Assembly: GCA_021813405.1 (NCBI GenBank)
Contig: JAKAKS010000031.1
Coordinates: 62,001 to 126,000, forward strand
Length of the DNA stretch: 64,000 nucleotides
Direction: 5' to 3'
From: Nitrospirota bacterium
GTDB taxonomy: Bacteria > Nitrospirota > Thermodesulfovibrionia > Thermodesulfovibrionales > JdFR-88
How positions within the stretch are numbered: the stretch's first letter is position 1; every line of letters begins with the position of its first letter. The notes beneath the pieces were generated by a model, which was given only the letters and a program-made list of their open reading frames with translations, was not told where the DNA came from and did not search any database. Of this stretch, positions 3 to 49,573 are shown piece by piece. Both the position numbers and the translations under genes were made by a program.

Positions 3-3000
3 GGCAATTCCACCGGTCATGGGATAAGTATCCAGACGCCCGGAGCATTTACGATCCGCGGGGTTCCGCCCGGTACTTACCTGCTGGGCGCCGGAATGGA
101 CGTTCTGGGGTATGGCGTGCCGAATGTGATTGACCCGCAATACATGTCGGTCAATGCAACAATTGTAAATGGGGACGTAACCGGGCAAACTTTAACTCTT
201 GCTAACCAGGCATCTCCGGCTCCAGTTGCGCCAACTTTAAAAAAGGTAAGTCCAGCCGATCATGCGGCGTTTATCAACTGGAAGCCTGCTTATAACGCCA
301 GCAACCTGGAGATAGACGATCATTATCGTATCTACTGGGGCACCGATCCGGCCGCTTCAAACGGGGGGATCATAAACGTTCCGGCGGACGGACAGCATAT
401 GTACATCCAGTCCGGTCTTACGAACGGTACGCAGTACTATTACAAGATGACAGGCCTGGTAAGCGGAATGGAGAGCGCAGCCACCGCAGTTTACGGGCCT
501 GTTACGGTTGGGCCAGCATCCGGCCTGTACACGGTATCGGGCATAGTTAATGTGCCTGCCGGGACTACGGGGCCGTTGTACGTGGGCATTCGCGACGATT
601 ATTCGGGGGCACTATACGCTACCGAGATAAGCTCGCCTTTAGCGGGCGCAAATTCTTATAATGTTGCGGGCATATCGAACGGCACGTATGGGGCATTTGC
701 CTTCATAGACCAGAACAACGATGGCCAGCCGGACACTGGCGATCTCACCACGGGGATGAACGGCGATTACATCCCGGTTGTTGTAAACGGCTCCGGCATG
801 ACGCAGAATCTTTCTCTTGCCTTCGAAAACGGCACGTCAAGCGTCACTACAACTCATTGGACTGATGGCGTAAACAGCAGTTACAGCCTGAATCTGGAAA
901 TGGATGGCATGCAGAAGCTGCCTGTGAACGTTGCACTTGTCAATGGGCCCAATGTTCCTTATCCCGTCGATATATCGCCAAGCGCCAACGATAATCCCGG
1001 GTCGTTCCGCGACTGGACGGGCACCGGCGCTACCAGTCCCAACGTAGGGGATACTTACACGTTTGCCGTCACATATGCAGACGGGAGCACGGAAACATTT
1101 AGCTCACCAGTTGGGGCCGTGCTGGACAGCTTTGCGCAAAATCTGGGCGTTATAAATTCCCCCAGCATGAATGTGCCTACGTTCAACTGGAGTGGCCCGG
1201 CCTCGCCCCCGGCGTTTTACTCATACAGCATCAATGTCGGGCAGCAAAACGGAGGGCAGGTATGGAATTATCCCAAAAAGGGGAATATGCCCAGCAATCA
1301 GACTTCCGTTCAGTTCGATGCAGACAAAAGCGCAAACCAGTCCTCGCTTGTAAACGGGACAACATATGACTGGCAGGTTTCCGTAAACGATGCAAGCGGC
1401 AACCAGGCACAGTACAGCGCATATTACACGCCCGGCGGGGCATCCGTATCTGGAAACGTCAGCGGGGCCGTTTTAAACGGGGTCACCATCACGCTATCCG
1501 GAGCTGCAAGCGGAAGCACCGTAACGAACGTAAACGGCAATTACTTGTTTGCAGGGCTTTCAAATGGCATTTATACGGCAACGCCTCAGCTTTCTGGGTA
1601 TACGTTCAGCCCGCCGAGCCAGTCCATTACAATAAACGGCCAGGACTTGACGGGCGTGAACTTCACGTCCATTTCCAACTCAGTCTCTCAAACATATAGC
1701 ATATCAGGGCAGGTCAGCGGGGCCGTTTCAAACGGAGTCACCATGACTTTGAGCGGCACTTCAAACGCAACCGCCACTACCGATATAAACGGCAATTACT
1801 CATTCACCGGCCTTGTGAACGCTGGCAGTTACACGGTTACGCCGTCTGATAGCGGCTATTCGTTTACTCCGGCCAGCCAGTCCGTCATAATAAACGGATC
1901 GAGCGTAACGGGGGAAAATTTCACTTCCTCCGCCTCCGGCCACTCTATATACGGGAACGTATCGGCCAATAACGGAGGGGCTGCGGCACCGGGCGTAACA
2001 ATGGCCCTGGTACAGAACGCCGTTACCATTGCCACCTCCAGCACGGATGTCAACGGCAATTTCGCGTTTGCCAATGTGCCGGATGGCACATACGCAATCA
2101 CGCCCAACCTTTCTGGTGGCAGCGCCACATTCAGTCCGTCCAGCCAGACGGTGACAGTAAACGGGAGCGACGTTAACAGCGTCAACTTCCAGATGAACGG
2201 CGGGTACGACGTCTCCGGCACGGTAAGCTATGTTGGCGCGCATACCGGGCGGATTTACGTAGGCCTGTTCGATCCAAATAAAAATGCTGTAGGCCTGGGC
2301 GTAAGCATCACATCCCCCGGCGCGTTTACGATCAGGGGGGTGCCGCCGGGCAGCTATACCCTGGGCGCCGCCATGGATATCCTCGGCTACGGCACGATGA
2401 ACGCCGCGGACCCTATGGGCGGCACGGTCATAATTGTAAACGGAACCATGACGGGGCAGAACGTCACGATAACAGACCAGCCCATACCCACGCCGGTTAC
2501 GCCCACGTTAAAGAACGTTATGACAAGCGGAGGTACGGCGATAATCCAGTGGAAAACGCCTGAAACCAATTCTCCGGTTAATGGCCTGGAGATAGCGGAC
2601 CATTACCGGATTAACTGGGGCACCGACGCGGCCGCCTCAAACGGAGGGATAATAAATGTTCCGGCGAACGGCCAGAACATTTACATCCAGACCGGCCTTG
2701 TTAACGGCAGCAGTTATTACTACACCATTGAAGCGATAGTAAACGGTACGGCAAGCGCGCCTTCCTCTGTGGCCGGGCCTTATACTGTCAATGCCGGTTC
2801 AGGCCCGTATACTGTCTCCGGTATCGTCAATGTTCCCGAAGCGCCCATCGGGCCGTTATATGTGGGAATTTATAACGGGAACGATGTATATGCGGCCTTT
2901 ATCAACTCGCCGGTTATTGGATCGAATGCCTATACAATCCCTGGCGTGCCTGACGGCGAATACTCTGCCTTTGCCGTGTTGGACCAGAATAAATCCGGCC

Positions 3001-6000
3001 AGTTCAATGCTGGAAACCTGATGATGGGTGTTAATGGCAACGGTTACATCCCGGTGGTAATAAACGGGGCCGGTGTGGCACAGGACCTGGATCTGGCAAT
3101 CGCAAACGCTACGGCATTGGCCAGCACAATTCATTCGACCGGGGTCAATGGCGATAATTACAGTCTGGACTTGGAACTGGAGCCCCAACTGAAGCTGCCG
3201 GTAAATGTTGCGCTGGTCAGCGGGCCAAATGTTCCTTACCCTGTGGACTTGTCGACTAGCGGCATAGACAAATCGGGCATAGATGAATGGGTCAATATAG
3301 GTCCTATCAGGCCGAACATTGGCGACACCTACACATTTACGGTTTCTTATGCCGACGGAAGCTCCGAAAACATTTCCTCATCGGTTTCGGCGGTGCTTGA
3401 CAGCTTTCCTCAAAACTTGGGCGTTACTAATACTCCAGATGCGTTTGACCCCACGTTCAACTGGGCGGCCCCGGCTTCGCCGCCTTCCTACTACGTCTAT
3501 TACTTGAACGTCCAGCAGAATAACGGCGGCCAGGTCTGGTCTTATCCCAACCAGGCCAACGGCATGCCCAGCACCCAGAGCTCCGTGAGGTACAACGCGG
3601 ATGGCAACGCCAATCCGGCCTCGCTTGTAAGCGGGACGGCTTATAACTGGCAGGTCAGCGTAATGGATCCCAACGGAAACCAGGCGCAATACCAGAGCGC
3701 ATATACGCCCACCGGAACGCAACTATATTCAATATCCGGTTATGTGAGCGGAGCTGTCATCAACGGGGTGACCATGACCCTTTCCGGCAGCGCAAACGCT
3801 ACAACCACTACCGATGCCAGCGGATATTACTCCTTCACCGGGCTTGTAAACGGTAGCGGTTATAATTATACTGTCACACCGTCGCTTGCCGGGTACTCGT
3901 TCAACCCCCCCTCTATGCCGGATATTTACATATACAGCACGGATGTGACGGGCGTGAACTTTACCGCTACTGGCGTATGCACAGCGCCATACTTCGTAAA
4001 CGTGCCTTCCAGCGCCAGCGGGTACAGCCCCAGTATCGGGATTGTCTGGAATGACGACCACAGTGCCGGATATACTTACGTCATTGACAGGAGTAAGGAC
4101 GGCGTTAACTGGACGGCAACTGACATTAACAACGGGACCAGTTCTGCTTGCCCGGCTGGCTGGGGGCAGTGCATGTATTACACTGATACAGACCCTGGCC
4201 TGCAAAACGGCGTTACATACTACTACCGCGTAACGGCCACCAAGTCCGGTTACATCAATAGCGCCCCTGTTCATGGCCCCAACGGGTGCGCGCTTACGCT
4301 TCAGGCCAGGGCGCCGTATTACGTCTCGGTGCCTTCCAGCGCCGCGGGATACAGCCCAAGTATCGCTATCACATGGAATGATGATTCCAGCGTCGACAGC
4401 GGATATACGTACGTGATAGACAGGAGCTCTGACGGCGGCACAACTTGGACCAACAACATCAATAGTGGAACAAGTGCCGCATGCCCTGCCGGATGGGGGC
4501 AGTGCATATACTACACCGATACTAGTTCCAGCCTGGTAAACGGAGTTACCTACAACTACCGGGTGACGGCCACCAAGGCGGGCTACGCCAGCAGTGCAAA
4601 GGTGCAGGCGCCCAACGGGTGCGCGCTTACGCTTCAGGCCAGGGCGCCGTATTACGTCTCGGTGCCTTCCAGCGCTTCGGGGACCAGTCCGCAGATAGGG
4701 ATTACCTGGAATGACGACCAGAGCGCCGGATATACCTACGTGATAGACAGGAGCGCTGATGGAGGCGCCACATGGACAACCAACATCAACAACGGCGTCA
4801 GCGCCGCATGCCCGGCCGGATGGGGACAGTGCATGTATTACACCGATACTAGTTCCAGCCTGGTAAACGGAGTTACCTACAGCTACCGGGTAACGGCCAC
4901 CAAGACGGGCTACGCCAGCAGCGCAAAGGTGCAGGCGCCCAACGGGTGCGCACTTACGCTTCAGGCCAGGGCGCCGTATTACGTCTCGGTGCCTTCCAGC
5001 TATACTGGGTACAGCCCCGGCATCGGGATTGTCTGGAATGATGACCAGAGCGCCGGATATACGTACGTGATAGACAGGAGCTCTGACGGCGGCACAACTT
5101 GGACCAACGACATCAATAGTGGAACAAGCGCCGCATGCCCGGCTGGCTGGGGGCAGTGCATGTATTACACCGATACTAGTTCCAGCCTGGTAAACGGAGT
5201 TACCTACAACTACCGGGTGACCGCCACCAAGACGGGCTACGCCAGCAGCGCAAAGGTGCAGGCGCCCAACGGGTGCGCGCTTACGCTTCAGGCCAGGGCG
5301 CCGTATTACGTCTCGGTGCCTTCCAGCTATACTGGGTACAGCCCCAGCATCGGGATCGTCTGGAACGATGACTCCAGCGTTGACAGCGGATATACGTACG
5401 TGATAGACAGGAGCTCTGACGGCGGCACAACTTGGACCAACAACATCAATAGTGGAACAAGCGCCGCATGCCCTGCCGGATGGGGGCAGTGCATGTATTA
5501 TTACGACACGGATCCAAGCCTGGTAAACGGGGTTGCCTATTATTACCGGGTGACCGCCACCAAGACAGGCTACGCCAGCAGTGCAAAGGTCCAGGCGCCT
5601 GGAGCTTGCACCATGATGTATCGGAGCCAGCCGCCGTATTACATTGCCGTGCCATCGCTCAGCTCCGGCGGCAGCATTGCTGTACGGTGGAGCGATGGCT
5701 CCAACGGCTATACCTACGTAGTGGACAGGAGCGCGGACGGGGTCTCATGGACCTCTGGCGTATGGAGCGGTACGGCCACATCGTTTACCGACACTGGACT
5801 TGCGGGCGGCACTTATTATTACCGCGTGAAGGCGACGAAATCCGGTTACCAAGACAGCGGTTATCAGACATCGAGTGCCTGCATTGTGACAACCCCCAAT
5901 AATTGGACGACATTAGCCTCTGCTCCGGGAGTTGTCAATGGAGGCTCTATGGCGTACGACGGTAGCAGTAATCTCTATGTGTTACTTGGGAATGGGACCG

Positions 6001-6713
6001 ACGCATTCTGGAAATACAACATCGCCACCAATTTGTGGACCCAAGAAGCCTCTGTTGGGCAGGGTGGAGCAATTGTAAACGGAGGCTCCATGGCGTACGA
6101 CGGCAATGGGAATTTCTATGCATTGCCGGGAAATGGGACTGACGCATTCTGGAAATACAACATCGCCACCAATTTGTGGACCCAAGAAGCCTCTGTTGGG
6201 CAGGGTGGGGTAATTGTAAACGGAGGCTCCATGGCGTACGACGGCAATGGCAATTTATATGTGTTGCCGGGGAACAACACCACTTCCTTCTATAAATATA
6301 ACGTTGCCACTAATGCCTGGTCGCAGATAAGCTCTGCTCCGGGAATTGTCAATGGAGGCTCCATGGCGTACGACGGCAATGGCAATTTATATGCATTGCC
6401 GGGGAACAACACCACTTCCTTCTATAAATATAACGTTGCCACTAATGCCTGGTTGCAGATAAGCTCTGCTCCGGCAATTGTCAACGGCGGCTCCATGGCC
6501 TATGATGGCAACGGCAATTTCTATGCATTAATGGGGAACAATACCAATTATTTCTATAAATACAACGTTGCTCAAAATATATGGTACACAGGCGCCGCTG
6601 CCCCAGCCCAAGCTCCTGGAAATGTCAACGGAGGTGCTCTGGCTTTTGGAAACGGCAGTTTCTTTGCACTACAGGGCAATGGCGCTACCGGTTATTGGGA
6701 ATACGTCCCCTGA
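3..6713 (+). CDS. Giant repetitive secreted/surface protein (carboxypeptidase-regulatory-like, Fn3-like and kelch-like repeats), 5' end outside the window
   Basis: Frame of the 96..6713 ORF is open back to base 3 (GNSTGHGISIQTPGAFTIRGVPPGTYLLGAGMD...), matching an internal repeat (SITSPGAFTIRGVPPGSYTLGAAMD). Many SGxVSGAVxNGVTxTLSG, APYYVSVPSS and VNGGSMAYDG repeats. Confidence 0.85.
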   Translation, partial: GNSTGHGISIQTPGAFTIRGVPPGTYLLGAGMDVLGYGVPNVIDPQYMSVNATIVNGDVTGQTLTLANQASPAPVAPTLKKVSPADHAAFINWKPAYNASNLEIDDHYRIYWGTDPAASNGGIINVPADGQHMYIQSGLTNGTQYYYKMTGLVSGMESAATAVYGPVTVGPASGLYTVSGIVNVPAGTTGPLYVGIRDDYSGALYATEISSPLAGANSYNVAGISNGTYGAFAFIDQNNDGQPDTGDLTTGMNGDYIPVVVNGSGMTQNLSLAFENGTSSVTTTHWTDGVNSSYSLNLEMDGMQKLPVNVALVNGPNVPYPVDISPSANDNPGSFRDWTGTGATSPNVGDTYTFAVTYADGSTETFSSPVGAVLDSFAQNLGVINSPSMNVPTFNWSGPASPPAFYSYSINVGQQNGGQVWNYPKKGNMPSNQTSVQFDADKSANQSSLVNGTTYDWQVSVNDASGNQAQYSAYYTPGGASVSGNVSGAVLNGVTITLSGAASGSTVTNVNGNYLFAGLSNGIYTATPQLSGYTFSPPSQSITINGQDLTGVNFTSISNSVSQTYSISGQVSGAVSNGVTMTLSGTSNATATTDINGNYSFTGLVNAGSYTVTPSDSGYSFTPASQSVIINGSSVTGENFTSSASGHSIYGNVSANNGGAAAPGVTMALVQNAVTIATSSTDVNGNFAFANVPDGTYAITPNLSGGSATFSPSSQTVTVNGSDVNSVNFQMNGGYDVSGTVSYVGAHTGRIYVGLFDPNKNAVGLGVSITSPGAFTIRGVPPGSYTLGAAMDILGYGTMNAADPMGGTVIIVNGTMTGQNVTITDQPIPTPVTPTLKNVMTSGGTAIIQWKTPETNSPVNGLEIADHYRINWGTDAAASNGGIINVPANGQNIYIQTGLVNGSSYYYTIEAIVNGTASAPSSVAGPYTVNAGSGPYTVSGIVNVPEAPIGPLYVGIYNGNDVYAAFINSPVIGSNAYTIPGVPDGEYSAFAVLDQNKSGQFNAGNLMMGVNGNGYIPVVINGAGVAQDLDLAIANATALASTIHSTGVNGDNYSLDLELEPQLKLPVNVALVSGPNVPYPVDLSTSGIDKSGIDEWVNIGPIRPNIGDTYTFTVSYADGSSENISSSVSAVLDSFPQNLGVTNTPDAFDPTFNWAAPASPPSYYVYYLNVQQNNGGQVWSYPNQANGMPSTQSSVRYNADGNANPASLVSGTAYNWQVSVMDPNGNQAQYQSAYTPTGTQLYSISGYVSGAVINGVTMTLSGSANATTTTDASGYYSFTGLVNGSGYNYTVTPSLAGYSFNPPSMPDIYIYSTDVTGVNFTATGVCTAPYFVNVPSSASGYSPSIGIVWNDDHSAGYTYVIDRSKDGVNWTATDINNGTSSACPAGWGQCMYYTDTDPGLQNGVTYYYRVTATKSGYINSAPVHGPNGCALTLQARAPYYVSVPSSAAGYSPSIAITWNDDSSVDSGYTYVIDRSSDGGTTWTNNINSGTSAACPAGWGQCIYYTDTSSSLVNGVTYNYRVTATKAGYASSAKVQAPNGCALTLQARAPYYVSVPSSASGTSPQIGITWNDDQSAGYTYVIDRSADGGATWTTNINNGVSAACPAGWGQCMYYTDTSSSLVNGVTYSYRVTATKTGYASSAKVQAPNGCALTLQARAPYYVSVPSSYTGYSPGIGIVWNDDQSAGYTYVIDRSSDGGTTWTNDINSGTSAACPAGWGQCMYYTDTSSSLVNGVTYNYRVTATKTGYASSAKVQAPNGCALTLQARAPYYVSVPSSYTGYSPSIGIVWNDDSSVDSGYTYVIDRSSDGGTTWTNNINSGTSAACPAGWGQCMYYYDTDPSLVNGVAYYYRVTATKTGYASSAKVQAPGACTMMYRSQPPYYIAVPSLSSGGSIAVRWSDGSNGYTYVVDRSADGVSWTSGVWSGTATSFTDTGLAGGTYYYRVKATKSGYQDSGYQTSSACIVTTPNNWTTLASAPGVVNGGSMAYDGSSNLYVLLGNGTDAFWKYNIATNLWTQEASVGQGGAIVNGGSMAYDGNGNFYALPGNGTDAFWKYNIATNLWTQEASVGQGGVIVNGGSMAYDGNGNLYVLPGNNTTSFYKYNVATNAWSQISSAPGIVNGGSMAYDGNGNLYALPGNNTTSFYKYNVATNAWLQISSAPAIVNGGSMAYDGNGNFYALMGNNTNYFYKYNVAQNIWYTGAAAPAQAPGNVNGGALAFGNGSFFALQGNGATGYWEYVP
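3970..5880 (+). repeat. Tandem Fn3-like repeat units of about 300-330 bp, several nearly identical at DNA level
   Basis: NGCALTLQARAPYYVSVPSS and SAACPAGWGQCMYYTDTSSSLVNGVTYxYRVTATKxGYASSAKVQAP recur in consecutive units. Confidence 0.85.
5925..6700 (+). repeat. Kelch-like tandem repeats (VNGGSMAYDGNGNLYALPGN...FYKYNVATNAW)
   Basis: Six VNGG(S/A)(M/L)A units at about 120-135 bp period. Confidence 0.8.
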
Positions 6714-37481: not shown

Positions 37482-38570
37482 ATGGGCTTCCCTGCACAGC
37501 GTTTAAGAAGGCTGAGAAAAAACGATAATATGCGCAGGCTTGTGCGCGAGACGGGATTGTCTGCGGACGATTTTATACAGCCGCTTTTTGTTGTGGAAGG
37601 CGATGGGGTGCGCAGGGAAATATCCTCCATTGCCGGAAACTACCACCTTTCCGTAGACATGCTTGTGGAGGAGGCCATGGAACTCAGTGGCCTGGGCATA
37701 CCCGCCGTTCTGTTATTCGGGGTACCCGAAGGCAAGGATGATTCGGCGGCCGGGGCGTATGCGCCGGACGGCATAGTGCAGAGGGCGGTCCAGGCGATTA
37801 AAAAGGCCGTTCCCGGGATGGTGGTAATAACCGACGTGTGCCTTTGCGAACATACCACCCACGGGCACTGCGGGATAATCAGAAACGGGTATCTTGCAAA
37901 CGATCCCACAACCCAGATAATAGCCAGGATTGCGCTTTCACATGTTGAGGCCGGCGCGGACATAGTTGCCCCCGCCGCAATGATGGACGGGCAGATCCGC
38001 GCCATCCGGACAATGCTTGAGGAGCATGGGTATCATGAGGCCGCCATAATGGCGTATGCGGCCAAGTACGCTTCGAAGCTTTACGATCCTTTTTTCAAAC
38101 ATGGCACCCAGTCCCCGGTGGCCTTTGGGGACAAGCGGTCTCACCAGATGGATTTCGCCAACTCCAGGGAGGCCATGCGGGAAATAGAGCTGGACATTGA
38201 AGAGGGGGCGGACATCGTTATGGTGAAGCCCGCCCTGTTTTACCTGGATGTCGTTTACCAGGCAAGGCAGAGGTTTGATACCCCTCTGGCGGTATACAAC
38301 GTAAGCGGCGAATATGCCATGGTGCAGGCGGCTGCCGAAGCCGGAAGGCTGGACTTTGACGCGGTGATGCAGGAAGCGCTGGTCTCCTGCAAAAGGGCCG
38401 GAGCGGACGTGATAATCTCCTATTACGCAAAAGAAGCCGCCAGGCTGCTCAACAGGCCGGCGTATTCATGGCATTCAGCCCGCCCATTGCCAGAATTTCA
38501 ATCCGATGCCCCGGCCCTGGACGGCAACGCACGCGGCGTATCCTCTGTGGACGTGGAGGTGGGCAGTTGA
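37482..38570 (+). CDS. hemB: Porphobilinogen synthase (delta-aminolevulinate dehydratase)
   Basis: Start refined to ATG at 37482 (RBS AAGGAG); TDVCLCEHTTHGHCG, MVKPALFYLDVV. Confidence 0.93.
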   Translation: MGFPAQRLRRLRKNDNMRRLVRETGLSADDFIQPLFVVEGDGVRREISSIAGNYHLSVDMLVEEAMELSGLGIPAVLLFGVPEGKDDSAAGAYAPDGIVQRAVQAIKKAVPGMVVITDVCLCEHTTHGHCGIIRNGYLANDPTTQIIARIALSHVEAGADIVAPAAMMDGQIRAIRTMLEEHGYHEAAIMAYAAKYASKLYDPFFKHGTQSPVAFGDKRSHQMDFANSREAMREIELDIEEGADIVMVKPALFYLDVVYQARQRFDTPLAVYNVSGEYAMVQAAAEAGRLDFDAVMQEALVSCKRAGADVIISYYAKEAARLLNRPAYSWHSARPLPEFQSDAPALDGNARGVSSVDVEVGS

Positions 38571-39209
38571 CCACTGCCTCCGGCAAGCGGTTTGCACCGG
38601 AATGGGGCAGGCATCGGACAGCCCGGCCCCAATGGCTTTCAGGTATGCTTCCCTGCGGGTCCAGAACCTGAAGAAGTTTTTTCCACGCATGCGTGCTGGG
38701 CATGCTTTAAGCCAGATGCTTTCCATGCGGGGGAAATACTGCCGGGCGATATCGTCAACGGCGGCAGAAGGGATATTGATGACCTGTTCAATGTCCACGC
38801 CTACTTCCCGCCCAGGGGAGAACGCGTAAAGCGCCAGCCCGCCCGAATGCGAGACGCTGAAACGAAGGGCGTTATCTCCCTGGGCGTAATCAAGCTGCGG
38901 CTTTCCGGAAGGCCCGTACCGGAACCGGACCAGACCGGGCCGGGTTTCAAGATAACCGGCCAGTATTTGCCTGAGTGCTCCGCGTGCGGCTATGTAATGG
39001 TTTCCACCGTCTGTAAAACGGAAGCGGCCGGCTTTTTCCAGTTCGTCTTCAGAGAGGATTTCCCGGAGCGCATCCAGTCGCCATTCCGGCATGTCCAGAA
39101 AGGCGCGCCATATATGGATCTGGTTTGCGCTCAGGTATGGGAAATTTCTACCGGGGGGAGGCCAGTTTTGCGGCGAGTGCCGCCTAGGCCCAAACCATTG
39201 CGCCAGCAC
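38475..39209 (-). CDS. 4'-phosphopantetheinyl transferase (Sfp-like)
   Basis: RFRYGPSGKPQL...LRFSVSHSGGLALYAFSPGREVGVDIEQV; WTRREAYLKAIGAGL. Confidence 0.87.
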   Translation of the reverse strand: MLAQWFGPRRHSPQNWPPPGRNFPYLSANQIHIWRAFLDMPEWRLDALREILSEDELEKAGRFRFTDGGNHYIAARGALRQILAGYLETRPGLVRFRYGPSGKPQLDYAQGDNALRFSVSHSGGLALYAFSPGREVGVDIEQVINIPSAAVDDIARQYFPRMESIWLKACPARMRGKNFFRFWTRREAYLKAIGAGLSDACPIPVQTACRRQWSTAHLHVHRGYAACVAVQGRGIGLKFWQWAG

Positions 39210-41874
39210 TGGTGTTTGGCTCCATTAAGCCGTTTATCTCCTCAAGGTAACCGGCCAACTGCCTGCCCCATGTCCCCACAAAAGGCTCCTCCATGATCTT
39301 GAGATGTGAGGCCCCGCGGATTTCATGAATGTGCGTTCCGCCAGCGGCAAGACCGCTGTAGTCCGGCAGGTGTACACACCTCTTATCGGCAATGAAGATT
39401 ACGGCTTTCCCAGGGTATGGACGGGCCTTGTAATGCTTCGCGGTGTTTATCCGGTAGAAATCAAGGAAACGCTTGGGGACGGGCCGGCCAAGCGAAAGGG
39501 AAGTATGGCAGATTGCTGTTTTTACCATGCCTATTGCCGGGCTCTGCCTGATCCTGCCTGATACCGGCGTTCTTTTTACACTTCCCTGCGAATCGGCGCA
39601 GGTTATGTTGATCCTGGCCAGAAGCGATTTCCTGAGCGGTGATACGCCATTGTCATTGCTGTTTACAGGCACACATTGCGGAGGCGGATCTATCATGCAC
39701 AGCAACGGAACTTCATGCCCGCGCTTAAGCAATTGCTGGGCCATCTCCATTGCAACCAGCCCCCAGAAACACCAGCCTCCAAGCATGTACGGCCCGTTTG
39801 GCTGTATGGCAAGCATGTCTTTCAGGCAGAGGCCTGCCAGTTCCTCAAGGGAGCGGAAGACCGCCGGTCTCCCGTAATCGCCCGGCAGCAGCATCCCGTA
39901 TAGCGGCTGGCCCTGGCCGATGTGGCGCGGCAAAAAAGCATTTATGCCTATCCAGAACAGTGGCAATTTGTGGCCGCCGGCCTGGGCCACTATGGAGGGT
40001 GTTTTTGAAACCCGCACTTCCGCTTGCATGGCCATGGCAAGCTGCCTGATTGTGGGCGCCTGGATTAAAGATGACACCGGGACGATTTTGCCGGTCAGTT
40101 TTTTAATCTCCGCCGACATGCGGGCCGCAAGCAATGAGTGCCCCCCCAGGTCGAAGAAGTTGTCATGCGCGCCTATGCGCTCTATTCCAAAGAGGTTTCT
40201 CCAGACACTGGCCAGCATCAATTCATCCGGCGCACCGGGGGCAATATAATTCTCCTCCTGGCTTGTGTTGCCGGGGATGGGCAGCGATTTGCGGTCCACC
40301 TTGCCGCTTAATGTAAGGGGCAAGGCGTCCAGGAACACGAAACGCGACGGCACCATGTAATCGGGGAGCTTTTTAAGCAGAAAATTTCGCAAGTGGCTTG
40401 CTTTCAGCTGTTCGCCTTTGCGCGCCACCACATATGCCGCAAGGAATTTTCCCCCCTGGCCGTCATCGAATCCGGCTACGGCCGTTTCTTTAATGCCGCC
40501 TATCCCGTTCAGCACTGTCTCTATCTCGCCGGTTTCAACCCTGTAACCCCTTATCTTCAGCTGATGGTCCTTCCGCCCAAGGTGCACCAGGCATCCGTCG
40601 GGCTGCATGTAGCCGATATCACCCGTCCTGAAAACACGATGGCCGGGTTTCTGTTCATCAGGCTTAAACGGCGACCCGGCATCGCCGTCTTTCCGGTAAT
40701 ACGCACGCGGCAGATAAGGGCTGCTTACTACGATCTCGCCGGGGGCGTTGGGGGCAGCCCTTTTCCCTTTCTCATCCAGTACAAACACTTCCATATCTTC
40801 CACTTCATAACCGGCCGGCACTATGCCGCCGCTGAACCGGGTATCATGATCGCAGAAGAACTGGCGTACTATGTTGGTTTCCGTGGAGGCGTAAGATACA
40901 TGGAAGATGCAGCCGCGATGGAAATGCCTGCTGTAAGATTCCACGTCTCTTTTTAGGACGGGCTCGCCTGAAAGCTTTATCATACGGAGCCTGGGAAACA
41001 TTTCTTTACCCGAAAGGGTGGAAACGAAATGCCGGTAAACGGTCGGCACGGAATGGTATATGGTTATCTCTTCCTTCTCAAGCCAGCCTGCCAGCCCTGC
41101 AATGCCCTCTTTTTTTATATCGAAGGGGAAGAGAGCCGCGCCGTTCAGCAGCGCGCCAAACACGTTTGGCACAGATGCGGCAAAGCTGCAGGACCAGAGC
41201 AGCGAAAGCCGGTCGTCCGGGGCCAGATGCAGCATATTGGAGCATCTCATGACGTTATGAAGAACATTCCGATGATCATGGGAAACACCCTTTGGTTCCC
41301 CTGTGGACCCGGATGTATAAATAATGTAAGCCGCCGTTTCGGGCGCTACCCGCAGTTTAAGATTTTCTGGAGAAAACCTGGAAACAGCCTCTATTTCCAG
41401 GAGTTGCGATGCATTGTCAACCAGCTTGCTTGCCAGTGAATAATGCCCCCTGCCGGTTATCACAAGCCCTGGCTGGCAATGTTTAATTATCGAGATGTTT
41501 TTTGAAAGTGTGAAGGATGTGTCCAGCGCAATATATGGTTTGCCTGCCTTCAGCGCGCCCAGTATTGCCGGAATGAGCTGGGCCCCCTGGTCCAGGAAAA
41601 GCGCTACCGGCTCATTATCCGTTCCGCGCAATTTAATTATAGCCCTGGCAATGCGGTTTGCTGCCTGGTTTAACCCATCATATGTAAGGTGGGCTGTTGC
41701 CGTCTTAACCGCAAGCCTGTCAGCATGCTTTGCCACCTGTTGCTCAAAGCGTTCCGCAACGGATTGGTTGATTTCTGATTTTAAAAACCTGGGAAAAGGT
41801 TTTCCCGGCCCCACCCGGCCCGGCAAAACAGCGCCGCTTATTTCTTTTCTCATATTATTAAGGAAAGTACCCAT
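39184..41874 (-). CDS. Stand-alone NRPS-like A-PCP-TE protein
   Basis: A3 YIIYTSGSTGEPKGV; FRTGDIGYMQPDG; GRKDHQLKIRGYRVETGEIE; PCP FFDLGGHSLLAARM; TE GGWCFWG. No condensation domain. Confidence 0.88.
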   Translation of the reverse strand: MGTFLNNMRKEISGAVLPGRVGPGKPFPRFLKSEINQSVAERFEQQVAKHADRLAVKTATAHLTYDGLNQAANRIARAIIKLRGTDNEPVALFLDQGAQLIPAILGALKAGKPYIALDTSFTLSKNISIIKHCQPGLVITGRGHYSLASKLVDNASQLLEIEAVSRFSPENLKLRVAPETAAYIIYTSGSTGEPKGVSHDHRNVLHNVMRCSNMLHLAPDDRLSLLWSCSFAASVPNVFGALLNGAALFPFDIKKEGIAGLAGWLEKEEITIYHSVPTVYRHFVSTLSGKEMFPRLRMIKLSGEPVLKRDVESYSRHFHRGCIFHVSYASTETNIVRQFFCDHDTRFSGGIVPAGYEVEDMEVFVLDEKGKRAAPNAPGEIVVSSPYLPRAYYRKDGDAGSPFKPDEQKPGHRVFRTGDIGYMQPDGCLVHLGRKDHQLKIRGYRVETGEIETVLNGIGGIKETAVAGFDDGQGGKFLAAYVVARKGEQLKASHLRNFLLKKLPDYMVPSRFVFLDALPLTLSGKVDRKSLPIPGNTSQEENYIAPGAPDELMLASVWRNLFGIERIGAHDNFFDLGGHSLLAARMSAEIKKLTGKIVPVSSLIQAPTIRQLAMAMQAEVRVSKTPSIVAQAGGHKLPLFWIGINAFLPRHIGQGQPLYGMLLPGDYGRPAVFRSLEELAGLCLKDMLAIQPNGPYMLGGWCFWGLVAMEMAQQLLKRGHEVPLLCMIDPPPQCVPVNSNDNGVSPLRKSLLARINITCADSQGSVKRTPVSGRIRQSPAIGMVKTAICHTSLSLGRPVPKRFLDFYRINTAKHYKARPYPGKAVIFIADKRCVHLPDYSGLAAGGTHIHEIRGASHLKIMEEPFVGTWGRQLAGYLEEINGLMEPNTSAGAMVWA

Positions 41875-42137
41875 AGCGTAAATTTATTATCTTTGATGAT
41901 GCTGTACAATGGCGTATATTGCGCCGGTTTGTTCAAACCTTGCCAGTTCCTTAAAACCCGGAAAGCCCGGATTTGCCCGTCTGAATTCTATTAATTTCCG
42001 TTGACATCGGATACGAATGCCACTATCTTTTTAGGTAGCCGCACCCCCAAGAACCTGGCGGACAGTTAAGCCGGTAAAAAGAAGCTCATCGCTGTTTTCA
42101 AAGAAAAGCCAGACCGTTTTATTTTGCGGAGATTTTT

Positions 42138-44864
42138 ATGTGCAGGAAAATCTTTCCGGTGTTTGTGGCTTTGATCTTTTCCGTGCTGTTTATCTTGGGT
42201 GTAACTGGCGCATCGGGCAAATGCAATGGCGGAGCCCCTGCCTTCAAGAAGGGCACGGTGCTTATCAAATACAAGAATCCGGCCCTTGCCTGCGCAGGCA
42301 GGTTTTCTGCGGCTGAAACCCGGCTTGCCCTGCGTACCAGGAAAACGTTCTCCGCGTTGGGCATAAAAGAACTGAAATTGCCGCCGGGCGTCAGTGTTAA
42401 AGATGCCCTGGCCGCGCTCCGGCTGGACCCCGATATAGAATTTGCCGAACCGGATTACGCGGCCCGTATTCAAACCGCTCCCAACGATCCCTTATACGGA
42501 AGCCAGTGGGCGCTGCCAGCCATAAATGCCCCTTCAGCCTGGTCCTATGTCCAGGGGAATTCAACAGTGGTCATAGCGGTCCTTGATACCGGGGTGGATT
42601 ATACTCATCAGGACATAACAGCTAATATATGGGCCAATCCAAACCCGGCCGCCCCGGCTGAGGCCGGCTCTTACTCTATTACCGGCGATGTTCGCGGGTG
42701 GGATTTCGTAAATAACGGGCCGCAGCCTTTTGACGATAACGGGCACGGCACTCATGTCTCCGGGATCGCCGGGGCGGATGGCAATGATAACCTTGGTATA
42801 GCCGGGACTAACTGGCAAGCAGGCATCATGCCGGTAAAGGTGCTGGATGCCTCCGGCGCCGGCTATCTGGACACCATTCTCCAGGGAATACAGTACGCTG
42901 CGGCCAGGGGCGCCAGCATTGTAAACTGCAGTTTCGCGTTTGCGCCCGGTATCTCTTTTCCGGCCAGCCTGCAAAGCGCAATTGCCTTGTACCCGGATAT
43001 GCTGTTTGTGTTTGCGGCAGGCAACGACGGGGCCAATATAGACAATTACAATTATCCGGTGCTGCCAAATCTGCTGTTTGTGGCATCTGTTGGCCAGGCA
43101 GGGAACCTGTCCGCCTTTTCCAATTACGGCCCGGCTACTGTGGGGTTGGCCGCCCCCGGCGAACAGATTCTCTCGCTTAAAGCCGGCAGACAGACTGTAT
43201 ACCTGGACAATTTTGATAACCCTGACTGGACGGACCCCACAGGGCTGTGGACGGTATCCAACAGCAGCCTTGCCGATGCGCCCCAGTCCGGTTCCGATTC
43301 ATACGCCCAGAGTCCGCCCATAGACCTCACCGGGCAAAGCGCGTGCATTGCCGGTTTCAACCTGGGCCTTATCGCCTCCGGCGGCGATTCGCTATACGCG
43401 GAAGCTTCAAGAAACGGCACAAACTGGACCACACTTGGCCAGTTCCGTGGGGCAGTGCCTAACCCTTCCGATACCGGCGCGGAGCTTGTCTCGCTGGACC
43501 AGTTTACAGGCGCTACAGTATATTTCAGGTTCAGGCTCCAGACCTCCGCGCCAGGTGAGAGCGCGGGAATTCACAATTTCAATGTAACCTGCACGGCGCC
43601 GGGAACAGGATACCTGTATGAAAGCGGCACTTCCATGTCCACGGCGTTTGTGACAGGCGCAGCCGCCCTGATAAAATCTGAATTCCCGTCCGTTTCCGCC
43701 GCGGGCCTTAAGACGCTTATACTCGGTGGTGTGGACAAGGGGCCATCCCTTAGCGGGAAGGTCTCCAGCGGCGGGAGTCTGGACGTGTATAAAAGCCTGC
43801 TTCCGCCTGCGCCCGCAGATTTCGCGGCAAGCAGTATAGGCGCCAGTTCGGTAACGCTTGCATGGACCCCGGCCCCCAATGCCTCCGTTTACGTTCTTTC
43901 CAGGGCGTCCCAGGGCGGAAGTTTCCAGGTTATTGCGGACCTGTCCGGCGGCGCATATACCGACAGCGGGCTGTCCCAGAATACCACATATCAATACAGC
44001 ATAAGCGCCCAAAACAAGATAGGCGCTTCACCTCAGCCCACGCAAATTACCGTAACCACGGATTCCACCTCTTCGCCTTCATCGGGAGGGCATGGGTGCT
44101 TTATAGCCACGGCGGCCTTCGGCAGCCCTATGGCACAGGACGTCCTTCTCCTGGATCATTTCAGGGACAGGTACCTTCTTACTAATTGGGCAGGCCGCGG
44201 GTTCGTTACCCTTTATTACCGCTACTCTCCTGCCGCCGCCGGCTTCATAGCCCGGCATGAAGGGCTGAGAACAGTTGTAAGATGGATGCTTTATCCCGTC
44301 GTCTACGCTGCAAGGTATCCGGCCATTATAATGGCCCTGATGTTGACGGCCCTAGCGTATGTAGCCATAAAAATTGTAAAATACACTACATGCGGATTGA
44401 AGAAAAGGTTTTACGACATGCCGATTGAAAGCAGAAAAGGTTTTACGCTTCTAGAGGTCCTTGTAGTGCTTGTAATCCTTGGAGGGCTTGCTGCGATAGT
44501 TGCTCCCAAGATTATAGGCCACATCGAAGAGTCGAAGGTAACAGACGCCAAGATACAGATAAGGAATCTGGAGACAGGGCTTAAGTCCTATTACCTGGAT
44601 AATGGCTTCTATCCATCAACGGACCAGGGCCTTCATGCCCTGGTGGAGCCGCCCAGCACCGGCCGCATCCCCCAGCATTACAGGAAAGGCGGCTACCTGG
44701 AACAAAACAAGGTGCCCAAAGACCCCTGGGGAAACCCATACGTTTATACCTCGCCCGGCCAGCACGGCGATTACGACCTGCTGAGCCTTGGGCCGGATGG
44801 CGGCCAGAATGACGGCCAAGGTGATGACAAGTCCATCAAGAGCTGGGACCTCGGCCAGCACTGA
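42138..44864 (+). CDS. Subtilisin-like S8 protease + Fn3 + CFI-box-like C-terminal region fused in frame to GspG pseudopilin
   Basis: Asp AVLDTGVDYTHQD, His NGHGTHVSGIAG, Ser ESGTSMSTAFVTGAAA; CFIATAAFGSPMAQDV; then RKGFTLLEVLVVLVILGGLAAIVAPKI. No intervening stop. Confidence 0.85.
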   Translation: MCRKIFPVFVALIFSVLFILGVTGASGKCNGGAPAFKKGTVLIKYKNPALACAGRFSAAETRLALRTRKTFSALGIKELKLPPGVSVKDALAALRLDPDIEFAEPDYAARIQTAPNDPLYGSQWALPAINAPSAWSYVQGNSTVVIAVLDTGVDYTHQDITANIWANPNPAAPAEAGSYSITGDVRGWDFVNNGPQPFDDNGHGTHVSGIAGADGNDNLGIAGTNWQAGIMPVKVLDASGAGYLDTILQGIQYAAARGASIVNCSFAFAPGISFPASLQSAIALYPDMLFVFAAGNDGANIDNYNYPVLPNLLFVASVGQAGNLSAFSNYGPATVGLAAPGEQILSLKAGRQTVYLDNFDNPDWTDPTGLWTVSNSSLADAPQSGSDSYAQSPPIDLTGQSACIAGFNLGLIASGGDSLYAEASRNGTNWTTLGQFRGAVPNPSDTGAELVSLDQFTGATVYFRFRLQTSAPGESAGIHNFNVTCTAPGTGYLYESGTSMSTAFVTGAAALIKSEFPSVSAAGLKTLILGGVDKGPSLSGKVSSGGSLDVYKSLLPPAPADFAASSIGASSVTLAWTPAPNASVYVLSRASQGGSFQVIADLSGGAYTDSGLSQNTTYQYSISAQNKIGASPQPTQITVTTDSTSSPSSGGHGCFIATAAFGSPMAQDVLLLDHFRDRYLLTNWAGRGFVTLYYRYSPAAAGFIARHEGLRTVVRWMLYPVVYAARYPAIIMALMLTALAYVAIKIVKYTTCGLKKRFYDMPIESRKGFTLLEVLVVLVILGGLAAIVAPKIIGHIEESKVTDAKIQIRNLETGLKSYYLDNGFYPSTDQGLHALVEPPSTGRIPQHYRKGGYLEQNKVPKDPWGNPYVYTSPGQHGDYDLLSLGPDGGQNDGQGDDKSIKSWDLGQH
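44418..44864 (+). CDS. gspG: Type II secretion major pseudopilin GspG (possible internal start in the protease-GspG ORF)
   Basis: ATG at 44418 in frame; prepilin cleavage motif RKG/FTLLE; GspG C-term PKDPWGNPYVY...DLLSLGPDG. Confidence 0.75.
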   Translation: MPIESRKGFTLLEVLVVLVILGGLAAIVAPKIIGHIEESKVTDAKIQIRNLETGLKSYYLDNGFYPSTDQGLHALVEPPSTGRIPQHYRKGGYLEQNKVPKDPWGNPYVYTSPGQHGDYDLLSLGPDGGQNDGQGDDKSIKSWDLGQH

Positions 44865-45294
44865 CGGCTTTACATTCCTGGAACTTGCCGTAGTGCTCTT
44901 CATAATATCCCTGATGCTGGCGCTGGTATATCCGGCGCTCAGGTCAAGGTCCTCCGATTCCGTGCCTTTGAGGATCGCCTCCGTTCTTAAACAGATAAAT
45001 GAGGCCTCCCAGGCAAGGAAGCAAAACTACTCCATAACGTTCGATATGGACAACCACACAATCAATTGGGACGGGCCGGACGGCAAAAAGACGATGGATG
45101 CCCCAGGCCTGCAGTCCGTTACCATTCCATCCAGGGGCGAAGTTAACCAGGGCACTCTGCAAGTGCTGTTTGATTACTCCGGCGCGCCGGAAGACATCAC
45201 GGTGCTGCTGGACGAGCACGGCGGCAAGGCGTACAAGGTAAAGCTGAATGAGATGAGCGGCAGGGTGCACATTGAAAATGCCGATGCGCAATAA
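44824..45294 (+). CDS. gspH: Type II secretion minor pseudopilin GspH-like
   Basis: TDG/FTFLELAVVLFIISLMLAL; order G-H-I-J-K. Confidence 0.75.
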   Translation: MTSPSRAGTSASTDGFTFLELAVVLFIISLMLALVYPALRSRSSDSVPLRIASVLKQINEASQARKQNYSITFDMDNHTINWDGPDGKKTMDAPGLQSVTIPSRGEVNQGTLQVLFDYSGAPEDITVLLDEHGGKAYKVKLNEMSGRVHIENADAQ

Positions 45295-45631
45295 AAACGG
45301 TTTTACGCTTTTGGAGGTGCTGGTTGCGCTTGCGATAGCCGGCGGCCTGCTGATAAGCGTTATCGAGCTTGTTAACCATAACCTCTCCGTAGTAAACAGG
45401 TATCAGACCGAGGCCGTTGCCGGGATGCTTGCCCGGCAGAAGATACAGGAGTTGAAGCAATCCCCGAAAGAGGAGAACGGCAGCTTCCCGGAGCCTTACG
45501 CCGATTACGAGTATTCCACAAAGATAGAGGACGGGCCGCTGCCAGGTCTGAAGTCCATCGTGGTAGTGGTAACCAAGGGCGGTACGGCGGGCCGGGATTC
45601 AGCCAGCTTCAGGGTGTTTTACAGGGGATGA
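45278..45631 (+). CDS. gspI: Type II secretion minor pseudopilin GspI
   Basis: NG/FTLLEVLVALAIAGGLL. Confidence 0.82.
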   Translation: MPMRNKNGFTLLEVLVALAIAGGLLISVIELVNHNLSVVNRYQTEAVAGMLARQKIQELKQSPKEENGSFPEPYADYEYSTKIEDGPLPGLKSIVVVVTKGGTAGRDSASFRVFYRG

Positions 45632-46263
45632 AAAAAACCTGTATCAAAATCGCTTCCGGCTGTCCCGCCCTGGCAGGGCTGAAATCACGGACAGGCTCTA
45701 AAAAGGGGTTTACCCTTCTTGAAGTGCTGGTTGCCGTTGCCATCGGGGCGCTGGTGCTTGCCGCCGTTTACGGCACTTTCTTTATGGTGCAGAAGGCCAC
45801 GGACACGGCGGGCGGCTCACTGGACAGGCTTTACGAATGCCGCAAGGCCATAGACGTGCTAAGGGACGAACTGGCCTCGGCGCAGGCGCCGGTCAACGTA
45901 ACCGGCAAGGAGTACCTGGGGAAAAAGGGTTCCACAGTCTCTTTTGTGACCTATTCGCCTAAAACAGGCCTGCTTACAGCAACCTCTTATTTTGTCAGGG
46001 AGAAAAAAGGCAATCTTTCGCTTGTAAAACAGATTGTGGAGCCGGGCAGGCCTGCCAGGGAAGCGGTTATACTGGACCGGATTAACTCCTTTCTCGTTGA
46101 AGTAAACACCGGCGGCGGCCAATGGACGGACAGCGGCTCATATTCCGGCGGGCAGATGAGTGCCGGGCAGGAGGCTATCAGGATATCGCTTTCGCTGGAC
46201 TTCAAGGGTTCCCCTATAACCCTGAGCGAATCGGTAACGCCTATGATAGGCAGGACATTGTGA
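45628..46263 (+). CDS. gspJ: Type II secretion minor pseudopilin GspJ
   Basis: KKG/FTLLEVLVAVAIGALVLAAVYGTF. Confidence 0.82.
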   Translation: MKKTCIKIASGCPALAGLKSRTGSKKGFTLLEVLVAVAIGALVLAAVYGTFFMVQKATDTAGGSLDRLYECRKAIDVLRDELASAQAPVNVTGKEYLGKKGSTVSFVTYSPKTGLLTATSYFVREKKGNLSLVKQIVEPGRPAREAVILDRINSFLVEVNTGGGQWTDSGSYSGGQMSAGQEAIRISLSLDFKGSPITLSESVTPMIGRTL

Positions 46264-46278
46264 GCAGGATTTAAAGGC

Positions 46279-47160
46279 ATGCTTAATACTTATAAACGGC
46301 AAAAGGCCAGTCAGCAGAAAGGGTTTATCCTTGTGATAGTCCTGCTGGTCACGGCACTGCTTGTGACCATGGCGGTGGAGTTTGCCCACAAGGTTTACAC
46401 CGGTATAACCGGGCTGCATAACCTGATGATAATGGAACGGCTTTCCGTGGAGAGCGATTCGCTGGTTGAAAGCGCATCGGGCATGCTTTCGGGCGCTCTC
46501 CAGCAGGGGATAATAAACGCCGGGGGGCCGGAGATGCAGTTTGCGCTGGAAAACGGCGTTACGCTGTACTTCGATGCCTCGGACGAGAACGCCAGGTTCA
46601 ATGTGAACACGGTGGTAAGCCCGAACGGGGATGTAAACCAGGACGCTTACCAGTCTTTCCAAAGGCTCCTTGGCGCGCTGGGGCTGGACAAGTCCATCGC
46701 GGACCAGCTTGTGGCCTGGGTAAACGCGAAACGCGCAAAGGGCGGCACTGCTTTAAACGGCGGCTGGCTGGGCAGCACATCGGAGTTCCGCCTCTTTGTG
46801 GACCCTGCTTCCTATGATAAACTAAAGGACTATATAACCGTGTTTGGCAACGGGCTTATAAATATCAACACGGCGGATGTCCCAGTGCTGATGAGCCTGG
46901 CTGACCAGAACGGCAACGCGGTTTCAAACGACCTGGCGGAAAACATAGTTACCAGGAGGAGCATGCAGCAATACGGCAGCATCGGAGAGCTTTCAAGCAC
47001 GGCAGGTTTCGAAAGCCTTGGTATGGCGCTTGCCGGAAAAATAACCACCTCCAGTTCCGCAATGGACCTTACTGCAAGGGCGGAGCAGGAAGGGATTAAA
47101 AGGATAACCCAGGCCGTGGTGTCCACATCGGGCACTGTTATTTACTGGAGGGAGTTTTAG
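46279..47160 (+). CDS. gspK: Type II secretion minor pseudopilin GspK
   Basis: QKG/FILVIVLLVTALLVTMAVEFAH; large periplasmic domain. Confidence 0.85.
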   Translation: MLNTYKRQKASQQKGFILVIVLLVTALLVTMAVEFAHKVYTGITGLHNLMIMERLSVESDSLVESASGMLSGALQQGIINAGGPEMQFALENGVTLYFDASDENARFNVNTVVSPNGDVNQDAYQSFQRLLGALGLDKSIADQLVAWVNAKRAKGGTALNGGWLGSTSEFRLFVDPASYDKLKDYITVFGNGLININTADVPVLMSLADQNGNAVSNDLAENIVTRRSMQQYGSIGELSSTAGFESLGMALAGKITTSSSAMDLTARAEQEGIKRITQAVVSTSGTVIYWREF

Positions 47161-48276
47161 TTGAGCAGGGGGATGTTCGATTTAAAAGATGCCTCCGGCG
47201 GGGTCCTTTACGTATTCAGCGGCGGCAAGGCCGTCTCCGAAATCCCCTTTACGCTGGATGGCGCTTTCAATGTTTCCTCCAGGGCAAACGAAAAAATTCC
47301 CGAACTGGATACGGTTTTTTTAAGCCTGCCCCTGCAACTGCTGGACTTCAGGGTAATTGAGTTCCCTTTTTCGGACCCGGCCAAGATAAGGCAGGCGGTT
47401 CCTTTTGAGCTTGAGGGCATAACCCTTAAAGGCGCAGGCCGTGTGGCATTTGACATCGTGCTCGGGCCGGAGGAATACGCGGCGGGCACTGCCGGGGCGC
47501 AGAAAGGCGCCGGACCGGCCGTGGCAGGCCGCAAGGTGCTGGCGGTGTATGCGGAGAAAAAACTTCTTCGCGGCATTATCACCTCCCTTAAATCCCTGGG
47601 TGCTGAACCCTCCGTGATAACCTCGGTGGAGCTTGCTGGCCTGGCCCTGCCAGGGCAGGCCGACTCATTCCAGAAACTTGTCCCTGCACTTGCCGCGGAG
47701 GCGCAGGCTGCTGGCAAGGAGGAAAGAAAGGCCCTGGCCCTGAAGGAGTTTGAAAAGCCGGTAATCAACCTGAGGCGGGGTGACCTGGCTTACACGAAGG
47801 AGCAGGAGGAATTCAGCCGCTCCCTGAAAAAGACATTTATGCTTGCAGCCGTGCTTGTGCTTGTGCTCTCCGTGAAAAACGGTGTGATGGCCATGATATA
47901 TAACAGCCGCGCCAGGGCCGTTGAAAATGAGATGGCGCTTGCCTACAAAAAGAGCTTTCCCGGCTCCAGGGTCTCCGGCGGGCCGGCCTCGCTTTATGCC
48001 TTAAGAAGCGATATTGCCAGCATGCAGCGGAAGCTGTCTGGCATCGGCGGGATACCGGCGATGGAAGACCTGAAGGCGCTTACGGAAAACAAGGTAAATA
48101 ACGTTGCATACAATGATATACATATGGACCAGTCCGGCATTACCGTGAAGGGGGAAGCAAAATCCCTGGACGACATATCGACCGCAAAAAAGGCGCTGTC
48201 TAAGGCGTTTTCTGTAAACGTGACCGAGACCAGCAATTCGGCCTCCGGTGTGTCGTTTACCATGAGGCTCAAATGA
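47161..48276 (+). CDS. gspL: Type II secretion GspL-like protein
   Basis: TTG start; actin-like N-term (VFLSLPLQLLDFRVIEFPFSDPAKIRQAVPFELEG), single TM; gene order. Confidence 0.75.
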   Translation: MSRGMFDLKDASGGVLYVFSGGKAVSEIPFTLDGAFNVSSRANEKIPELDTVFLSLPLQLLDFRVIEFPFSDPAKIRQAVPFELEGITLKGAGRVAFDIVLGPEEYAAGTAGAQKGAGPAVAGRKVLAVYAEKKLLRGIITSLKSLGAEPSVITSVELAGLALPGQADSFQKLVPALAAEAQAAGKEERKALALKEFEKPVINLRRGDLAYTKEQEEFSRSLKKTFMLAAVLVLVLSVKNGVMAMIYNSRARAVENEMALAYKKSFPGSRVSGGPASLYALRSDIASMQRKLSGIGGIPAMEDLKALTENKVNNVAYNDIHMDQSGITVKGEAKSLDDISTAKKALSKAFSVNVTETSNSASGVSFTMRLK

Positions 48277-48794
48277 AACTGTTCGGCAATCTGGAGCTGG
48301 ATGCGGACAAGAAGAAATACCTGCGTCCCGCGATGGTTGTGCTGGTGCTGTGCGTGATTTTTCTTGTTACAGCATTTGCTGAAAGCTCCGCCCAAAAGAG
48401 ACTGCGGCTTATAAAAAAGGAGGGCGCGGAGTTTGCTTCGCTGGACTCCCAATATTCCGGGCTGAAGGCCCAGGTGGACGAATTGGACAAGCGTGTGGCC
48501 CTAAGCCCCAAGACCGGCATTCTCAAGACAGCCGGGGACATCTTTGCATCGATGGGACTTCAGGACCGCATCTCCTCGATTAAACCTATGGATACAACCC
48601 AGTCTGGCGGGCTGACATCAGAAAAGGCCGAGGTATCGCTTAAAAAAATGGACTTGAACCAGGCTGTAAACGTGCTGTACCGGCTGGAAAACGCTCCGAT
48701 GCTGCTGACCTTGAAGGAGGTGGACCTCAGGAGCTCTTTTTCCGCCCCAACGCTGGATATGCGGCTGGTATTGGAGCTGACTTCAAAGAAGTGA
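48273..48794 (+). CDS. gspM: Type II secretion GspM-like protein
   Basis: One N-terminal TM plus coiled-coil; gene order. Confidence 0.65.
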   Translation: MKLFGNLELDADKKKYLRPAMVVLVLCVIFLVTAFAESSAQKRLRLIKKEGAEFASLDSQYSGLKAQVDELDKRVALSPKTGILKTAGDIFASMGLQDRISSIKPMDTTQSGGLTSEKAEVSLKKMDLNQAVNVLYRLENAPMLLTLKEVDLRSSFSAPTLDMRLVLELTSKK

Positions 48795-49573
48795 AAAAAG
48801 TATTAATCGCATTGGCCGTGCTGATTGCCGTTCCTTTCGCGCTGTGGTACGTGGCCATCCCCAATTCGTCCGTGCCCGCCTTTATCAATTCCGGGCTGTC
48901 CAGGGCTGGGGCGGCGGTAACGGCGGATAACTTCAGAAAAACCCTGTTCCTCGGATTCCGGGCCGATGGCGTGGACGTGACGGTTGCGGGCAGGAATGCG
49001 ATGAAGATAGACCATCTGCGGGGCGCCATAAGCCCGCTTTCGCTTTTTACCCTTAGCCCGAAGGTCCGCTTCAACATCGAAGCCGCGCAAGGGACGGTAC
49101 ATGGCGTTTTAACCTATCGTATTATAGGTGGCAAGAGCAGCCTGGCCGCGGAGGCCGATGGAATCCGGCTGGCCGCAATCTCCTCCATAAAAAGGGGCAT
49201 GGACGGCACGTTTGAGGGCAACCTCAGCCTTGACGGGGCCCGGGGGAAGCTGACATTCGAGATGGCCGGGCTTTCCAATTTTCCGTACGGGTTTACAAGC
49301 GCAAACGGGCTTGTCCGCATAAACGGCGGGGACCTTAAGCTTGAGTCCATCTCGCTTGAAAGCGCGCTGATGTACGCCAAGGTGAAAGGCGATATAAAGG
49401 ACGGCCGTTACAACGTGGTAACAGAGATAATGAAACAGCCCGCCAGCCTGACGGCATCGGGAACGGCAGGTACGGCTGGTACGGAGCCGTCGCTGGACCA
49501 GTCCCTTGGTAATTTTCTGCCTTCGGGCAAGATGACCGTGCCTGCATCAGGAACGATTCAGGGCTTGTTCTAG
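48791..49573 (+). CDS. gspN: Type II secretion GspN-like protein
   Basis: GTG start; N-term TM, beta-rich; gene order. Confidence 0.65.
   Translation: MKKVLIALAVLIAVPFALWYVAIPNSSVPAFINSGLSRAGAAVTADNFRKTLFLGFRADGVDVTVAGRNAMKIDHLRGAISPLSLFTLSPKVRFNIEAAQGTVHGVLTYRIIGGKSSLAAEADGIRLAAISSIKRGMDGTFEGNLSLDGARGKLTFEMAGLSNFPYGFTSANGLVRINGGDLKLESISLESALMYAKVKGDIKDGRYNVVTEIMKQPASLTASGTAGTAGTEPSLDQSLGNFLPSGKMTVPASGTIQGLF

Follow-up and report, generated by a model that had tools for sequence, protein, structure and literature searches.

A subtilase with a CFI-box tail is fused in frame to the complete pseudopilin GspG of a T2SS in a few uncultured Nitrospirota, where the fusion is real and conserved. Its recurrence, the duplication at its junction and a conserved element before gspG are likewise established at the level of sequence. 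The fusion is probably a tolerated merger of overlapping genes, in which GspG would come mainly from an ATG at 44418 on its own transcript and a minor fusion product would be cut by prepilin peptidase. Positions refer to the window, i.e., the whole stretch of 64,000 nucleotides analyzed, from genome G000, and the features are as follows.

42001-42029 (+): putative promoter-like site of the protease gene, TTGACA-N17-TATCTT, 10/12 consensus match
42138-44864 (+): frame of 908 aa in which the CFI-box subtilase and GspG are fused; open in the sequence, recurs in G001 and G004
42234-42455 (+): subtilase prodomain PF22148, residues 33-106; profile match
42561-43802 (+): S8 protease domain (PF00082, from residue 142) with D150, H203, N296 and S499; profile, motifs and alignment
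43809-44051 (+): fn3 domain, residues 558-638; profile match
44097-44303 (+): CFI-box NF041770, residues 654-722; 94.1 bits against a cut-off of 40
44322-44378 (+): hydrophobic helix of the protease tail, residues 729-747, predicted TM; hydropathy 2.35
44377-44382 (+): TAAAAT, kept -10 half of the promoter-like gspG element of the family, 7 nt upstream of ATG in copy 1; family comparison
44388-44415 (+): first tandem copy (copy 1) of the gspG start region, 28 nt; its ATG at 44390 is out of frame with GspG
44403-44408 (+): AAAAGG, Shine-Dalgarno-like, nine bases before ATG 44418; identical in G001
44416-44447 (+): tandem copy 2 of the gspG start region, 32 nt
44418-44864 (+): gspG from the internal ATG, 148 aa; TIGR01710, 161 bits
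44439-44444 (+): codons of G768/F769, predicted prepilin peptidase cut; motif
44788-49573 (+): gspH, gspI, gspJ, gspK, gspL, the gene in the gspM position, and gspN; profiles and gene order (gspH, I, J, K and L lie below curated cut-offs and were named with the help of gene order, gspM by order only)

The fused frame runs through 908 codons with no stop over the protease/GspG junction, as the original prediction had read it, and a GGAG at 42128-42131 lies six bases upstream of its start. It encodes, in order, a signal peptide, a subtilase prodomain, an S8 protease, an fn3 domain, the CFI-box, a TM helix, a basic loop and a complete GspG. With its PF00082 match and the triad D150/H203/S499 in order, plus N296, the N-terminal part can be classed as a predicted S8 protease; the catalytic residues were located by motifs and by alignment to solved subtilases, and an inserted stretch sets N296 and S499 apart. 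The complete triad and the CFI-box-like tail proposed earlier thus both hold. The CFI-box is not C-terminal, being followed by 186 residues that include the helix and GspG: after the tail helix come the basic loop, the prepilin motif RKG/FTLLE and the GspG helix (residues 771-789), and the peptide spanning the junction reads KYTTCGLKKRFYDMPIESR. In a profile search of the fused protein, residues 767-904 match TIGR01710 at 157 bits (cut-off 89), and the assignment to GspG is completed by the prepilin motif GFTLLE and the other gsp genes downstream. The match is full-length and gspG stands in its usual place before H-I-J-K, as expected of a major pseudopilin (TIGR01710, PF08334). Such proteins usually have only a short leader, whereas here a membrane-anchored protease lies in frame ahead; the leader would be eight residues before F if ATG 44418 is used, and the fused product has no short leader. 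The genome as a whole contains a single S8 gene, a single CFI-box and a single match to prepilin peptidase, the last on contig C15. The fused gene adjoins an AMP-binding/PP-binding/thioesterase protein and a 4'-phosphopantetheinyl transferase (38475-41874, -), found in the same place in G001. A second gspG-like gene lies on contig C33 (78701-79099; L137 8618-9115), adjoined by gspE- and gspF-like genes.

The same 908-codon frame is present in G001, a second species of the window's genus (JAJYLE01, Nitrospirae bacterium isolate DBS2-1.bin64), at 93% identity and with zero indels over the 2727 bases, and dN/dS between the two is 0.23 for the whole frame and 0.087 for GspG. A fused frame with a different junction and 48% identity occurs in G004, from another genus of the family. 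The genomes concerned are drafts, and a sequencing or assembly error could in principle have joined two genes; an identical frame in two assemblies and a third fused frame in another genus refute this in practice and leave it a negligible probability. The case of a fusion unique to one assembly, which the original prediction had raised against itself, is answered by the same two genomes. Among the matches listed for 179 genomes in the order and for 396 across the phylum, no further fusion was found; one whose tail differs strongly or whose GspG is weak could escape this survey. A 615-codon frame before gspG in G204 was rejected as a fusion, being an alternative frame over the place of gspF.

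All three possible overlap phases of the protease and gspG are found among four genera. In G018 and G005 the protease stop and the gspG start overlap as ATGA, in G003 the two genes overlap in another phase and are unfused, in G004 the protease is in frame with gspG with no inserted linker, and in G000 and G001 it is in frame via a linker. The gspG start region has been duplicated in tandem to form this linker (44388-44447), and the copies align as ACATGCGGATTGA----AGAAAAGGTTTTACG over ACATGCCGATTGAAAGCAGAAAAGGTTTTACG, with a score matched by 0 of 20,000 random adjacent pairs. When copy 1 is removed, the protease frame stops within gspG; copy 1 being needed for the open frame, the fusion in the window's genus arose by duplication, and that of G004 by another change. 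Copy 1 also supplied the AAAAGG before ATG 44418. The linker is the only short-unit tandem repeat at a score of at least 60 in the window, the units of the other rows being 132-327 bases; long tandem repeats with units of 327 and 132-141 nt occur in a 2205-residue protein at 96-6713.

The protease tree, (G004,(G003,(G000,G001))), places the unfused G003 between the fused lineages with an inner fork supported at 90/92, a topology that fits two fusion events; support in a tree of GspG only is too weak for ordering the genera. If the common ancestor of the four genera already had the fusion and G003 later reversed it, the history would be as short (one gain and one loss against two gains), and the fork has less than full support; but G004 lacks the tandem-duplication linker and has nothing inserted at its junction, and we regard this history as unlikely. 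The window's genus has long branches in both the GspG and the protease trees (0.6 and 0.93 changes per column), and change there is faster than in its sister genera.

In all nine family genomes that were examined beyond the window's genus, an element TTGGNN-N17/18-TARAAT precedes the gspG start by 5-9 nt, six of the nine having no CFI gene upstream of gspG; its frequency in shuffles is at most 0.002, for a pattern defined after the sequences had been seen. The geometry is that of a leaderless promoter, and the element may be called promoter-like. In leaderless and short-leader genes the -10 box lies at the start codon; judged from box spacing, the TARAAT of this family resembles them, with the difference that here the box lies within the coding sequence of the upstream gene. 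In family genomes with the protease, the box falls inside its last codons (KIVKY), and G008, which has no protease gene, carries DNA identical to that of the window's genus, AAAATTGTAAAATAC, which argues that the DNA rather than the peptide is conserved. Residues 723-757, which contain the box, show five non-synonymous and zero synonymous changes between G000 and G001; with about 3-4 expected, the lack of synonymous changes is suggestive only. In G000, TANNNT is in excess 5-6 nt upstream of starts (27 against about 5 per position elsewhere, over a sample of 446 kb), so this genome does have genes whose -10 box directly precedes the start. G000 and G001 both retain the box of gspG 7 nt ahead of the ATG in copy 1, but their -35 half is not recognisable, making promoter activity least certain in the window's genus, and a consensus sigma-70 scan, which found no site at the junction itself, agrees with this. 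In other families, a Shine-Dalgarno site takes the place of this element before many gspG genes. The in-frame ATG at 44418 with a weak AGG upstream, as described earlier, is present, and the AAAAGG makes a modest case for a ribosome site; RNA folding around this ATG gave no notable structure (z = 1.16).

These observations bear on how GspG is supplied. The original prediction had proposed a polyprotein, and its fusion, CFI-box tail and cut site stand; that GspG is mainly supplied in this way is not supported, since gspG has its own conserved promoter-like element, kept where no protease gene lies upstream, the close sister G003 is unfused, and the junctions of the two fused lineages are unrelated. 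The alternative offered with it, GspG made from an internal start, is better supported by the conserved element and the internal ATG. A dedicated polyprotein, with most or all GspG of this T2SS made on a membrane-anchored protease and freed by prepilin peptidase so as to couple the two, would account for a frame that has stayed open in two congeneric species and in another genus as well, for the intact cut site, for a helix order and a loop with five positive against two negative residues that fit a cytoplasmic site, and for the missing -35 half in the window's genus. Against this, the element is conserved in other genera, the fused G004 included, the internal ATG has its AAAAGG, unfused sisters have identical gene order, and the need for a major pseudopilin exceeds that for a protease. 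We therefore consider a dedicated polyprotein improbable, although likelier in the window's genus than elsewhere because the element is incomplete there. No paper on pseudopilin polyproteins was found in the literature searched.

Under a tolerated merger, a CFI-box subtilase gene belonging to the T2SS operon directly precedes gspG, its last codons overlapping the promoter-like element and the start of gspG, and the overlap drifts in phase within the family. The duplication of the start region (28 + 32 nt) brought the frames into phase in the window's genus, and a different junction change did so in that of G004. GspG would arise chiefly from ATG 44418 on its own transcript, and ribosomes starting at 42138 would yield the protease-GspG fusion as a minor product. 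The protease part of the latter would be exported, the tail helix would cross the inner membrane, and the leader of GspG would end up on the cytoplasmic side. The prepilin-peptidase site RKG/FTLLE is intact, as first noted, and the predicted topology permits cleavage at G/F: the order of the helices and the basic loop would place the motif on the cytoplasmic side, so that the fusion is probably cut there by prepilin peptidase, and the merger may be tolerated for this very reason. That the fusion has been kept open in two lineages is also expected of a useful polyprotein, and counts against a tolerated merger.

The tail matches the CFI-box-CTERM domain (NF041770), followed, as in other members, by a hydrophobic helix and basic residues; the frame of unfused relatives ends soon after the basic tail, whereas that of the window continues into GspG. 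We know of no sorting peptidase for the CFI-box, and in the literature searched no paper named it and no published function was found. MYXO-CTERM and GlyGly-CTERM clients of the T2SS, among them the serine protease VesB, have a tail made of a motif, a TM helix and a basic cytoplasmic end, and reach the surface via the T2SS (PMC11980579, PMC6219818). The tail of the fused protein has the same tripartite plan but a CFI-box signature motif, and because the signature differs membership is not claimed. MXAN_5598 carries an internal MYXO-CTERM, which the authors of its description explain by two genes having possibly fused; they also propose that the N-terminal part is processed (PMC11980579). The sorting tag is mid-protein there, as is the CFI-box here, but MXAN_5598 continues in its second half as an outer-membrane barrel with OmpA domains, as opposed to a pseudopilin with its own peptidase site.

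The association of CFI-box genes with the T2SS extends beyond the fused lineages. The order gspC-D-E-F-protease-G-H-I-J-K-L-M(-N) is found in G003, G004 and G005, and G018 and G057 (family f8) likewise have the protease in the slot from gspF to gspG; in G052 (family f13) this slot is taken by a CFI-box protein belonging to the MXAN_6640 metalloprotease family, and CFI-box genes occupy it in G163 and G164. Among the matches listed, a CFI gene directly precedes gspG in 10 of the 40 CFI-positive genomes of the order. CFI-box proteins in the slot in family f13 are encoded at L130 5770-7638, L131 6398-8266 and L133 7004-8863, that of L130 being an MXAN_6640-family metalloprotease and not a subtilase. 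In G000 the operon is split, with gspC-D-E-F on contig C34, where GspD (L138 12503-14650) ends in a subtilase-prodomain-like PF22148 domain, the only other match in that genome besides the prodomain of the protease itself. The same C-terminal domain of GspD also occurs in L126, L127, L128, L130, L134 and L146. In an alignment search, most GspD proteins across the order had the C-terminal extension, whether or not a CFI protease was present, and it is thus probably older than the fusion. The prodomain-like domain may bind subtilases; in the literature searched, no paper was found that links secretins and subtilisin prodomains.

An uncut fusion could itself be functional, e.g., as a protease tethered to the pseudopilus or the assembly platform, a reading in keeping with protease genes within the T2SS operon in three families and with the prodomain-like domain of GspD. 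Set against the intact cut site, a gene order common to unfused relatives, and the expectation that uncut GspG does not assemble, it appears very unlikely. Also unlikely is a single chain of protease and major pseudopilin parted by prepilin peptidase within a broader partnership, with the prodomain-like domain of GspD binding the same protease.

If a tolerated merger is the correct reading, the fusion would clearly illustrate how two neighboring genes become one, by way of an overlap whose phase drifts, a small duplication, and a processing enzyme that renders the result harmless. It would also warn that a fused frame, even if conserved, is not necessarily the main product. The gspF/gspG slot, occupied in three families (two with a subtilase there, one with a metalloprotease), provides genomic evidence tying CFI-box proteins to the T2SS. 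Together with the prodomain-like domain of GspD across the order, the proteases of this slot are a side result that may matter more than the fusion.
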